Notes under the pieces: model-generated
Database searches by the model: none
The model's input: only the letters and a program-made list of their open reading frames with translations
Told to the model about the DNA's origin: nothing
In this document: positions 59,629 through 63,548 of the stretch, piece after piece
How positions within the stretch are numbered: the stretch's first letter is position 1
Layout: each line of letters opens with the position of its first letter
Source of the DNA: Streptomonospora salina
Lineage (GTDB): Bacteria > Actinomycetota > Actinomycetes > Streptosporangiales > Streptosporangiaceae
Length of the DNA: 64,000 bases
Direction of reading: 5' to 3'
Assembly (NCBI RefSeq): GCF_014204715.1
Contig: NZ_JACHLY010000001.1
Span: 2,573,001-2,637,000, forward strand
Position numbers and translations under genes: made by a program

Positions 59629-60162
59629 CTACGCGGTTCTGCCCTCGGCGCGCGCCCGGATACCGCGCAGGGTGATCTCCATACCGGTGCGCAGCTCGTC
59701 GAGCCGGCCGATCACCAGCTGCTCTTCGAGATCGGGCATGCGGTCGATCGCGGCAGTGAGCCCGGAGCGGCCCGGTCCCAGCCGCACCGACTGCAGCAGC
59801 ACGGCGCCGCCGTCCTGCGGCTCCACCGAGTAGCGCCACACCGCCATCGGGTGGGCGGGATCGTCGGAGGGCGGGCCGAAGCGCCCGTCGGCGTCGAGGA
59901 CCGCCCAGCCGAACACGCGCTCGGGAACGAACTCGACCACTTCGGCGACGGTCCGCCACTCACCGAGGTGGCGGTTGCGGTTGTGCCCGGCGAAGCGCGC
60001 TCCCAGGGCCGGAACCCCCGCAGGGGTGAGCCACTCCGCACGCATCAGCTCGGGACTGAACTCGGCGGCGAGCCCGATGTCGGTGACCAGCTCCCACACC
60101 CGTGCCGGGGCAGCGTCGACCTGCGTCGCGCTCTCCGTCCCCGGTCCGTCCGCCAGACGCAT
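59629..60162 (-). CDS. SRPBCC-fold (polyketide cyclase/START-like) protein
   Basis: 177 residues. TQVDAAPARVWELVTDIGLA, SPELMRAEWL, GARFAGHNRNRHLGEWRTVA, EFVPERVFGWAVLD, WRYSVEPQDGGAVLLQSVRL match the SRPBCC ligand-binding fold. Ligand unknown. ATG 60162 behind AAGGAGGAATCGGC, an excellent site. It lies downstream of dnaB on the same strand, separated by 188 bases. Confidence 0.88.
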   Translation of the reverse strand: MRLADGPGTESATQVDAAPARVWELVTDIGLAAEFSPELMRAEWLTPAGVPALGARFAGHNRNRHLGEWRTVAEVVEFVPERVFGWAVLDADGRFGPPSDDPAHPMAVWRYSVEPQDGGAVLLQSVRLGPGRSGLTAAIDRMPDLEEQLVIGRLDELRTGMEITLRGIRARAEGRTA

Positions 60163-60350
60163 GCCGATTCCTCCTTCGCTCGCAGCTCCGCCTGCCCCGG
60201 ACCGCAACCGGCGGACCCCGGAACCGGCACGTCGTTTTGTCGACAAATCGGCCCCTCGGTAGTCGGCCTTGCGGAGGGCCGAAACAAGGGATCGAAGGAA
60301 CCGGCCGACGGACGGGGCGCCGACCGGGCGGGATCCTCCGTGTCGGCCCG

Positions 60351-63300
60351 TCATCCCGGAGCCATGTCGACGAAACGACTGTAGTGGCCCTGGAACGCCA
60401 CGGTGACCGTGGCCGTGGGGCCGTTGCGGTGCTTGGCGACGATGATGTCGGCCTCGCCGGCGCGCGGGGACTCCTTGTCGTGGGCGTCCTCGCGATAGAG
60501 CAGGACGACCATGTCGGCGTCCTGCTCGATGCTGTTGTGGACGTTGATCCCGCCGGCCACGAAATTGTGCGTCCCTGCGACGGTGGCGTCGAAGACCTCC
60601 TGCTCGCCGAGCGGCTCGATCTCGGCGATCTCGTCCCAGAAGACATCGTTGGTGGCCAGCATCTCAAGGTCCGAGTCGTCGAGGACGGCAGCCACCCGCT
60701 GCAGCCGCGGACGGCTCGGCGCCGTCGTCCGCAGCGCGCTCCCGCAGTGCTGCGTCTCGGTCTGCGCCGCGTACTCCCGGTGCGTCATCCCACGCTCGGA
60801 CAGGGCCGTCCCCACTCGGTCCCACACCTGTACAGGAACCGTATCGAGGTTAGTGTCGTCCTGCGTTCCGCTCACCCGCTCCAGGCACGAACGCGCCTGC
60901 TTCCCGCGTTCGCCGTAGACGCCGACCTCCTCCAGAAAGCGCCTCTGGGCGTCCGGTCCGTCGACCACAAGGCGGTAGCCGGGCCGATCCCCCTCCTCGG
61001 CGACGGTTCGGATGCGCGTCATGATCCCGAACCGCAACAGCAGGCGAGAGACGTCGTCCACGAGCCGCCGACTCGTCGACGCGTAGCGGATCCGGGCGTG
61101 GCCCGCCTTCTCGTCCCAGTGCGCACAGCCGTCCGTCGCCCAGAGGTGGTGCAGGAACAGGGCGATCTGCTCCTTGGGCAGATTCCACACCCCCTCCGGC
61201 ACGAACTTCTCATGGCTGCGCAGGCCGAAGAGTCCGAGGCCGTCCAACCACTGCGCAACGGGGTCCGGGCTCCCGCGGCTCACGCGATACGGCTCCGGCA
61301 GGCGCAGCGTCGTGACGCGGGCCGCCGCGTCTTCGCCGCGCACCGGCGCCGCGCCGAAGTGAGCGGCAGCACGGGTGACGGCCTGCAGATTCGCTTCGTC
61401 TATCGACGCGTATCGAACAGGTTGTCCCCGCACGAACGCGCCCTCCCCGATGAGGTGCGCCAGAAGGACGACCTCGTCGTCGGGCCACGCGCATACGCGC
61501 TCGGGTTCGGGGACCCGCCGAGGCACGGAGAGCCGGTCTCCGGGCGCGAGCCGCTCCAGCGGTTTCCATCCGTCGTAGGTGAGGAACGGATGGTTCCCCG
61601 AAGCCGTGACTTCCCGTCCCGACGTCAGGCGCAAGCGGAAGGTCTGCTTCGTGCCGCTATGGAACACCCGTGTCATCGTCTGAGGGACCAGCCGCAGCGT
61701 TTCGTCGAGGGACCACACGGAAACGTCGCGGGCGCCGGAAGCGTACAGCTCGCCGATCGTGGTCTCGGCTCCCGTGTCGGCACGCAGAATCCGTGTGTCG
61801 GCGGTCAGGCACCCCGATTCACGGAGATCGCTGACTTGGGGCTTCTTGTCGGTTCGCTGCTCCGGTCCGCGGTTGAGCTGGGAGAGGGCGATGACCGGCA
61901 CATCCAGCTCCTTGGCCAGCAGCTTCAGCGATCGCGACATCTCCGAGACTTCCTGCTGGCGGCTTTCCACGCGCCCGGCCGAGCTCATCAGCTGCAGATA
62001 GTCCACGACGATCAGCTTGAGGTCGTGCTGCTGCTTGAGCCGCCGGCACTTCGCGCGGATCTCCATCATCGACAGGTTCGGTGAGTCGTCGATGAACAGG
62101 GGCGCGCTGGCGACTTCGCCCATGCGGCGGGCCAGGCGCGCCCAGTCGTCGTCGGTCATCAGCCCCGACCGCATCGTGTGCAGCGCCACCCGCGCCTCGG
62201 CTGAGAGCAGGCGCATGACGATCTCGTTGCGCCCCATCTCCAGGCTGAAGAACACGCTGGTCAGCTGGTTCTTGATGGAGGCCGCCCGCGCGAAGTCCAG
62301 TGCGAGCGTGGAGTTGTGCGTGGGGATCCGCGCCCGCGTGGCCAGGTAGAGGCGGTCGGGGTGGTCGACCTGGACGCAGCGCACCGGAACACTGGCCACC
62401 CGCCGGGCGGCGATCACGCGGTGCGGAGCGCCGCCGCGCCCGGCGGATCCGTCCACAGGCTGGGGATCGAGCAGGGCCGCGGCGCCCGGAGTGCGGGCGG
62501 CCGCCGCTGCACGGCATCCGGATTCCGCGGCGGTGTTCTCCCCCGGACGCCGAGCGGCGATCGCGATGCCCGCAGGCCCGCCGCCGGCGGGCGCGTGCTC
62601 CAGCTCGGCGGCGAGTTCACCGGTGGTGGCCAGGCCGTGCACCGGCCCGCCCGACCCTTCCCGCAGCGTGGGCCACTGGTGCCGGGCGTCGGCGACCACC
62701 GCGGTGCCGTCGGCGAACTCCAGCTCGTAGCAGGGCCGCCCGCGCATCACCTCGGTCGCCGCGACCACCCGCGTGGGTGTGCCGTCGGCGGCCACGAGCT
62801 CGCCTCCCACGGCGACGTCGCCCATGGTGGTCCAGCCGTGCGGGGTGGGCAGCGGGGTGTCCAGCGCCAGCGCCTTGCCCACGGCCGGGCGTGCGGCGAC
62901 GATGACCATCTGCCCCGGGTGCAGTCCGTTGGAGAGCTGGTCCAAGTCGGTGAACCCGGTGGGCACACCGGTCATGGAGCCGTCGTGGGCGGAGATCGCC
63001 TCGATCTCGTCCAGAGCCCCCGGCATGATGTCGCTGAGCGGCAGATAGTCCTCGCCGGTGCGCTTCTCGGCGACGCGATGGATCTCGGCTTGGGCGTGGT
63101 CGACCAGGTCGTCGACTTCGCCGTCGCCGGAGTAGCCGATCTGGGCGATGCGTGTGCCGACCTCCACGAGGCGGCGCAGCACCGCGCGGTCGGAGACGAT
63201 GCGCGCGTAGTAGCCGGCGTTGGCCGCGGTGGGGATGGCCTCGGTGAGCGTGTGCAGGTACGGCGCTCCCCCGACCCGGGCGATCTCGCCGCGCTTGGTG

Positions 63301-63548
63301 AGCTCGGCGTTGACCGAGATGGCGTCGACCGGCTCGCCGCGCGAGAACAGGTCGACGGTCACGTCGAAGACGGTCTGGTGGGCCGGGCGGTAGAAGTCCG
63401 CGGACCGCACGATCTCGACGACCTGGGTGATGGCCTCCTTGGACAGCAGCATGCCCCCCAGCACGCTCTGCTCGGCCATGATGTCGTGCGGCGGTGTGCG
63501 CTCGAATCCGCTGCCGGTGTTCTCCGGCGGGTGTTCGGCGACGCTCAC
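60351..63548 (-). CDS. dnaB: Replicative DNA helicase DnaB with two inteins
   Basis: 1065-residue precursor. Extein 1 (1-225) is the N-terminal domain plus the helicase start, ending in ARPAVGK. Extein 2 (413-579) resumes STLALDFARA and includes Walker B LIVVDYLQLM, and QLNRGPEQRTDKKPQVSDLRESG-type motif 3. Extein 3 (1006-1065) resumes SIEQDADMVVLLYR. Removing inteins of 187 and 426 residues gives a 452-residue helicase, the normal DnaB size. Without splicing the Walker A loop is broken. GTG 63548 follows GCAGGGGGAATCCAC; ATGs further upstream are unlikely. Core replication gene, preceded by a DnaA-box cluster. Confidence 0.97.
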   Translation of the reverse strand: MSVAEHPPENTGSGFERTPPHDIMAEQSVLGGMLLSKEAITQVVEIVRSADFYRPAHQTVFDVTVDLFSRGEPVDAISVNAELTKRGEIARVGGAPYLHTLTEAIPTAANAGYYARIVSDRAVLRRLVEVGTRIAQIGYSGDGEVDDLVDHAQAEIHRVAEKRTGEDYLPLSDIMPGALDEIEAISAHDGSMTGVPTGFTDLDQLSNGLHPGQMVIVAARPAVGKALALDTPLPTPHGWTTMGDVAVGGELVAADGTPTRVVAATEVMRGRPCYELEFADGTAVVADARHQWPTLREGSGGPVHGLATTGELAAELEHAPAGGGPAGIAIAARRPGENTAAESGCRAAAAARTPGAAALLDPQPVDGSAGRGGAPHRVIAARRVASVPVRCVQVDHPDRLYLATRARIPTHNSTLALDFARAASIKNQLTSVFFSLEMGRNEIVMRLLSAEARVALHTMRSGLMTDDDWARLARRMGEVASAPLFIDDSPNLSMMEIRAKCRRLKQQHDLKLIVVDYLQLMSSAGRVESRQQEVSEMSRSLKLLAKELDVPVIALSQLNRGPEQRTDKKPQVSDLRESGCLTADTRILRADTGAETTIGELYASGARDVSVWSLDETLRLVPQTMTRVFHSGTKQTFRLRLTSGREVTASGNHPFLTYDGWKPLERLAPGDRLSVPRRVPEPERVCAWPDDEVVLLAHLIGEGAFVRGQPVRYASIDEANLQAVTRAAAHFGAAPVRGEDAAARVTTLRLPEPYRVSRGSPDPVAQWLDGLGLFGLRSHEKFVPEGVWNLPKEQIALFLHHLWATDGCAHWDEKAGHARIRYASTSRRLVDDVSRLLLRFGIMTRIRTVAEEGDRPGYRLVVDGPDAQRRFLEEVGVYGERGKQARSCLERVSGTQDDTNLDTVPVQVWDRVGTALSERGMTHREYAAQTETQHCGSALRTTAPSRPRLQRVAAVLDDSDLEMLATNDVFWDEIAEIEPLGEQEVFDATVAGTHNFVAGGINVHNSIEQDADMVVLLYREDAHDKESPRAGEADIIVAKHRNGPTATVTVAFQGHYSRFVDMAPG
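60534..61811 (-). other. DnaB intein 2: class 1 intein with LAGLIDADG endonuclease
   Basis: Residues 580-1005 (426). Block A CLTADTRILRADTGA with Cys1, block B GNHPFLTYDG, block F EVFDATVAGTHNFVAGG and block G GINVHN before Ser1006. The central DOD endonuclease has VVLLAHLIGEGA and ALFLHHLWATDG, both with an acidic residue in the active position, so nuclease activity is plausible. Inserted at SG|SIEQ, the site of many bacterial DnaB inteins. Confidence 0.92.
62313..62873 (-). other. DnaB intein 1: class 3 mini-intein in the Walker A loop
   Basis: Residues 226-412 (187). It starts with Ala (ALALDTPLPTPHGW) rather than Cys/Ser and ends THN before Ser413. The W-C-T triplet of class 3 inteins is visible: Trp in block B (GTAVVADARHQW, two after the His), Cys in block F (VRCVQVDHPDRLY) and Thr in block G (RIPTHN). 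A 90-residue Ala/Gly-rich middle replaces any homing endonuclease. It interrupts GK|ST of the ATP site, so splicing is needed for helicase activity. Confidence 0.88.

Follow-up and report, generated by a model that had tools for sequence, protein, structure and literature searches.

The closest described counterpart of the gene reported here is the DnaB helicase of M. smegmatis, which according to excerpts of the published study (PMC6195587) carries two inteins: a class 3 mini-intein in the P-loop (DnaBi1) and a class 1, endonuclease-bearing intein in the H4 loop (DnaBi2). In the same excerpts, splicing is fast for the H4-loop intein and slow for the P-loop intein, and under oxidation Cys48 becomes linked to the block F Cys and splicing halts. 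The double-intein architecture itself is already published through that account. The dnaB gene of Streptomonospora salina shares with it the two insertion sites and the order, classes and contents of the inteins, extending the M. smegmatis double-intein helicase to Streptomonospora and indicating that the arrangement recurs in actinomycetes. A search of one open-access library by title or abstract start found no paper on Nocardiopsis or Streptomonospora dnaB inteins. Within the genus, dnaB of Streptomonospora alba YIM 90003 (L006/L046) likewise has inteins of 186 and 426 aa at these two sites; its exteins are 98.9% identical to those of S. salina, whereas the inteins are only 77% (intein 1) and 83% (intein 2) identical.

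The window analysed, 64,000 nucleotides of S. salina DNA, sits in the 5.07-Mb contig C1. The precursor encoded at 60351-63548 matches the NCBIfam DnaB family TIGR00665 (E 3.3e-155, residues 19-1063) and NF005852 (1239.6 bits), while Pfam places the DnaB N and C domains (PF00772 and PF03796) over the exteins, identifying a replicative helicase DnaB. A ribosomal protein L9 gene is located ~2.7 kb upstream on the same strand (L151:2791-3237). The gene is the chromosomal replicative helicase dnaB. An upstream ATG in a 1108-residue frame offers a possible alternative N-terminus. The ATG of an open frame at 59629-60354 overlaps the dnaB stop codon; this frame has no NCBIfam match and an uncertain start, and translational coupling with dnaB is possible.

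Two in-frame inserts interrupt the helicase, one running from ALALDT to IPTHN and the other from CLTADT to INVHN, each followed by S. Subtracting their 187 and 426 residues from the 1065 of the precursor leaves 452 extein residues; an earlier note on this DNA had given the same inserts and extein length, and its coordinates and frame are also exact, the gene lying on the minus strand. Four intein-free DnaB chains align either side of both inserts with the extein residues complete at the junctions, and alignment to the intein-free DnaB of a relative (L018) leaves zero-length gaps at GK^STL and RESG^SLEQ. The alignment to intein-free DnaB that the note had proposed as a check therefore confirms the junctions. 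The inserts cannot be DnaB sequence proper, as intein-free DnaBs align across without them, and a frameshift or pseudogene was rejected on account of the single open frame and the constrained splicing domains. Table 1 lists the features.

Table 1. Features of the S. salina dnaB locus (positions in the window; intein residues numbered from the first residue of each intein).
Feature	Position	Strand	Detail or basis
dnaB precursor gene	60351..63548	minus	GTG start at 63548, 1065 residues
N-extein, residues 1-225	62874..63548	minus	C-terminal ...ARPAVGK; alignment to intein-free DnaB
Intein 1, class 3, residues 226-412	62313..62873	minus	187 aa, without endonuclease; residues, PDB matches, AlphaFold
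Intein 1 Ala1, Asp62, His65, Asn187		minus	
Intein 1 Cys48	62730-62732	minus	
Intein 1 Trp67	62673-62675	minus	
Intein 1 Cys166	62376-62378	minus	
Intein 1 Thr185	62319-62321	minus	
Middle extein, residues 413-579	61812..62312	minus	STLAL...RESG; alignment to intein-free DnaB
Intein 2, class 1, residues 580-1005	60534..61811	minus	426 aa, Cys1...His425-Asn426, +1 Ser; Pfam, residues, PDB matches, AlphaFold
Intein 2 endonuclease region, intein residues ~101-380	60672..61511	minus	PF14528, motifs, dN/dS
LAGLIDADG motif 1	61440-61466	minus	LLAHLIGEG
LAGLIDADG motif 2	61128-61157	minus	FLHHLWATDG
C-extein, residues 1006-1065	60351..60533	minus	starts SIEQDAD, includes stop codon; alignment to intein-free DnaB

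Intein 1 is located between the P-loop residues Lys225 and Ser413. Position 1 is Ala, so no Cys, Ser or Thr nucleophile is available there, and the triad Trp67-Cys166-Thr185 is found in blocks B, F and G, both features of class 3 inteins. The insert is not a chance sequence, because it matches the solved class 3 DnaB inteins of M. chimaera and M. smegmatis in the PDB (E 1e-43 to 2.3e-41). No match was obtained to the Pfam intein models, and no intein family occurs among the NCBIfam matches listed (25 of 31). The AlphaFold model (pLDDT 82.7 overall, <50 for residues 118-145) finds its best PDB matches in the M. chimaera and M. smegmatis class 3 structures 6rix, 6riy and 6bs8, consistent with a HINT fold; TM-scores by target are 0.86-0.92 over the best seven matches to class 3 DnaB inteins. 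The same residues occupy positions 48, 62, 65 and 67 in the M. smegmatis intein, which is 139 aa long compared to 187 aa here, with the linker longer here and containing a third Cys (Cys120). Among 76 dereplicated inteins at the P-loop site, 72 begin with Ala and four with Cys. Ala1, Cys48, Asp62, His65, Trp67, Thr(-3), His and Asn are invariant in all 72 Ala1 inteins; the block F Cys was recovered in 71 of these by regular expression and in the remaining one (L078), which lies outside the reach of the pattern, by eye from the printed row.

The linker between blocks B and F comprises 82 residues, from residue 67 to the last 38 residues, and is largely Ala/Pro/Gly-rich and partly disordered in the model. 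It opens with TTGELAAEL, resembling TTEEIARTL and TTRQIAETL of the longer L016 and L017 inteins. Given this start and the Ala/Pro/Gly-rich stretch that follows, the linker is most readily explained as what is left of a lost endonuclease. Between S. salina and S. alba, dN/dS is 0.196 and 0.192 for the two splicing blocks and 0.645 for the linker. Five within-genus comparisons give 0.49-0.67 for the linker and 0.11-0.26 for the C block; the N block ranges from 0.17 to 0.26 against three genomes and is less constrained against two others, G003 and G004 (0.51-0.52). A linker of this length and composition could slow intein 1 splicing.

Intein 2, inserted at RESG^SIEQ, opens with Cys and closes with a terminal His-Asn followed by Ser+1, which places it in class 1. 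Pfam detects an intein-splicing domain and LAGLIDADG_3 (PF14528) within the insert, and chance can be set aside because it matches solved DnaB mini-inteins (E 2.9e-25 to 7.1e-22). The AlphaFold model (pLDDT 89.8) shows a splicing domain with a LAGLIDADG endonuclease, and its best PDB matches are endonuclease-bearing inteins. All 69 inteins at this site have Cys1 and Ser+1, and 68 end in HN (one in KN). The assignment of the two inserts to different classes in the earlier note (Ala1 with W-C-T versus Cys1) is thus supported by the class-defining residues. Its placement of both inteins at sites essential for ATPase function applies to intein 1 in the P-loop but not to intein 2, which sits in a DNA-binding loop according to the excerpts of PMC6195587.

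Both LAGLIDADG motifs of intein 2 are present (LIGEG and WATDG), and most relatives have Asp as the motif 1 acid. Of the 55 full-length copies among the 69, S. salina included, 48 have Asp at this acid position, three Gly, two Glu and one each His and Ala, with S. salina having Glu; in the comparison with M. smegmatis, this Glu was read on the S. salina side only. For motif 2 the pattern returns Asp in 42, Glu in 2 and Gly in 2, and the nine copies missed by the pattern all have Asp as printed. Here S. salina has Asp, while S. alba carries its Glu in motif 2 rather than motif 1. Between these two species dN/dS reaches 0.385 in the endonuclease region, compared to 0.106 and 0.079 in the splicing halves (0.10 for the splicing part); it is the highest endonuclease value of ten pairs, the others being 0.08-0.30, although these pairs were hand-picked and the comparison is descriptive only. 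Each of the sister lineages seems to have replaced one catalytic acid under continued constraint on splicing, as would fit an endonuclease that falls out of use once the intein is fixed; such a course is described for other inteins in excerpts of PMC8966425. Judged by its sequence, the intein 2 endonuclease looks to be decaying in this way. The earlier contrast between a mini-intein and an endonuclease-bearing intein hence holds for content, with the qualification that the endonuclease shows relaxed constraint and Glu for Asp in motif 1.

The junctions, class-defining residues, predicted folds and constraint on both splicing domains make it very probable that chromosomal dnaB yields one precursor from which the two inteins remove themselves to leave a 452-residue DnaB. 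In intein 2, Cys1 would start the reaction, with transfer to Ser+1 and cyclisation of the last Asn. Intein 1, having no position 1 nucleophile, would instead use Cys166, set by the Trp67-Cys166-Thr185 triad, to attack the junction after Lys225; the N-extein would then pass to Ser+1, the P-loop serine, and Asn187 would cyclise. By analogy with M. smegmatis, intein 2 may be fast and intein 1 slow, and a disulfide between Cys48 and the block F Cys may reversibly block intein 1 under oxidation. The homologue that is the source of the redox behaviour (6bs8) is 42-43% identical to intein 1 in the structural alignment. Comparison among relatives suggests a long presence of intein 1 in the genus together with loss of its endonuclease; intein 2 would already have been carried by the common ancestor of S. 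salina and S. alba, its endonuclease now presumably decaying.

Cys48 was termed non-conserved in the M. smegmatis paper, as far as the excerpts go (PMC6195587), and its invariance at the P-loop site bears on this open remark. It is present in all 72 dereplicated Ala1 inteins, as one of 14 invariant positions in the first 67. In 12 phage inteins with the Trp and a terminal THN, hand-picked from the best 30 of 320 records, Cys occupies the position nine times and Ser or Thr three times; L148, one of these inteins, appears to have Cys as its first residue. On the sequences compared, Cys48 is conserved within the P-loop-site family and not across every relative. A doubtful reading would have the P-loop class 3 intein retained across actinomycetes as a redox-gated brake on replication; it draws on the invariance of Cys48 outside the splicing blocks, on its replacement by Ser or Thr in three of the 12 phage inteins and on the persistence of intein 1 without endonuclease in 6/6 Streptomonospora. 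That Cys48 is simply required for splicing is an equally good reading, because all seven Cys48 substitutions abolished splicing in M. smegmatis, as given in those same excerpts. A splicing need and a sensing role would predict conservation equally well, so that conservation by itself cannot separate the two.

The distribution of the inteins was read from relatives, with a dnaB match in 58 of the 60 searched. For 49 of these 58 the gene was read: both inteins occur in 8, intein 1 alone in 20 and intein 2 alone in 2, and the remaining 19 were scored as having none, one of the latter (L039, G040) holding the start of intein 2 cut by a contig end. The other 9 were called intein-free by open-frame length alone (451-500 aa). 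Among the 36 of 37 same-family genomes with a dnaB match, both inteins occur in 8, intein 1 alone in 15, intein 2 alone in 2 and neither in 11. Across the 133 loci read, less 8 duplicates, 45 genes carry both inteins, 76 a P-loop insert and 69 an insert at the other site. A pattern scan with the S. salina precursor covered at least 80 loci and, among the matches listed, gave 40 with both, 23 with intein 2 only, 15 with intein 1 only and 2 with none; the scan is biased, as some patterns fall inside inteins, and its two 'none' loci reflect a contig cut in L115 and a frame that breaks off in L098. Given the 8 of 36 same-family genomes and the 45 genes with both, a dnaB with two inteins is no rarity in this part of the actinomycetes, and the description of such genes as 'not common' in the earlier note does not stand. 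In Streptomonospora, intein 1 is present in 6/6 genomes (184-201 aa) and intein 2 in 2/6; intein 1 has presumably lost its endonuclease, and that of intein 2 is apparently decaying. The genus thereby provides a compact natural series for testing intein persistence in an essential gene.

This uneven occurrence bears on whether the inteins share a history. A single event bringing in both would account for their joint presence in S. salina and S. alba, yet the two differ in mechanism and sequence family as well as in their spread through the genus. On a tree of 102 exteins each intein needs at least 27 changes, and presence of one is not associated with presence of the other (16 independent pairs, median sign-test p 0.73; on average 3.4 pairs differ in the same way, 5.2 in opposite ways and 7.5 show no difference). 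One plasmid copy and 22 loci that did not parse, many of the latter intein-free, are missing from the tree, which therefore over-represents intein-bearing genes. Phage records also divide unequally, with 320 matching intein 1, none covering 80% of it, and 8 matching intein 2. We therefore consider joint entry extremely unlikely. Separate histories, which the earlier note had proposed as independent arrival, are supported by the 6/6 versus 2/6 occurrence and the lack of association on the tree.

The phage matches of intein 1 are in line with the link between class 3 inteins and phage made in excerpts of PMC5050341. The intein of the DnaB-like helicase of Brevibacterium phage Rousseau (L139) is class 3-like, lies after GK and has Cys48, Asp62, His65 and Trp67; it differs in residing in a phage gene, in having Thr at +1 and in its 59.4% identity to intein 1, which extends over the first 69 residues only. 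In the intein 1 tree, based on only 110 columns, the six Streptomonospora form one clade (100/82). The intein 2 tree groups S. salina with S. alba (100/100) inside a clade of nine Nocardiopsidaceae copies (98/99). Synonymous divergence between S. salina and S. alba (dS: exteins, 0.25; intein 1, 0.37; intein 2, 0.32) fits the presence of both inteins in their common ancestor. Intein 2 is 63-67% identical to four Nocardiopsis-type copies and L015, and 66% identical to one Streptosporangium and one Thermoactinospora copy. Import from outside the family, considered in view of these near-equal distances, was rejected as the tree nests intein 2 within the Nocardiopsidaceae clade. Gain from within the family, or old presence with loss, fits better, the two being indistinguishable here.

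The DnaB N-domain family is matched twice in the genome. The second match, on contig C3 (28,986 bases; L002 / L126:14718-16280), is a DnaB that has both the N and the C domain but lacks the two inserts. One or both chromosomal inteins might then no longer splice, with the cell relying on this intein-free protein. We regard this as very unlikely, since the chromosomal exteins are very strongly constrained (dN/dS 0.02 between S. salina and S. alba), the splicing residues inspected are intact and the other five genomes of the genus have one dnaB match each (E up to 1e-10). Against the three exteins, the protein from C3 shows 56, 57 and 74% identity, and genes resembling primase, FtsK and GntR share its contig. 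Among plasmid records, those ranking best for the protein are from Nocardiopsis and Streptomyces, with DnaBs 52-56% identical to it. These neighbours and matches suggest that it is most likely a plasmid's own helicase. The existence of the intein-free C3 DnaB makes dependence of the cell on splicing of chromosomal DnaB, which the earlier note took as given, likely and strongly indicated rather than a fact.

Further intein-like inserts were seen in passing. The four Cys1 inteins at the P-loop site of relatives' dnaB (L036, L088, L091 and L093; 4/76 dereplicated) end in VHN and by eye are without the WCT residues. From their sequences they look to be class 1, in which case the P-loop site is occupied by two mechanistic classes; no title on two intein classes at one site was found among the papers listed by an open-access library. 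Elsewhere on C1, a gene that reads by eye as RecA (L004:43-2562; C1:1036046-1039294) contains an intein-like insert with an intein_Nterm match, and a gene that by eye encodes a radical SAM protein of the Rv2578c type (L005:1231-2823; C1:2227032-2230256) contains a short intein-like insert.
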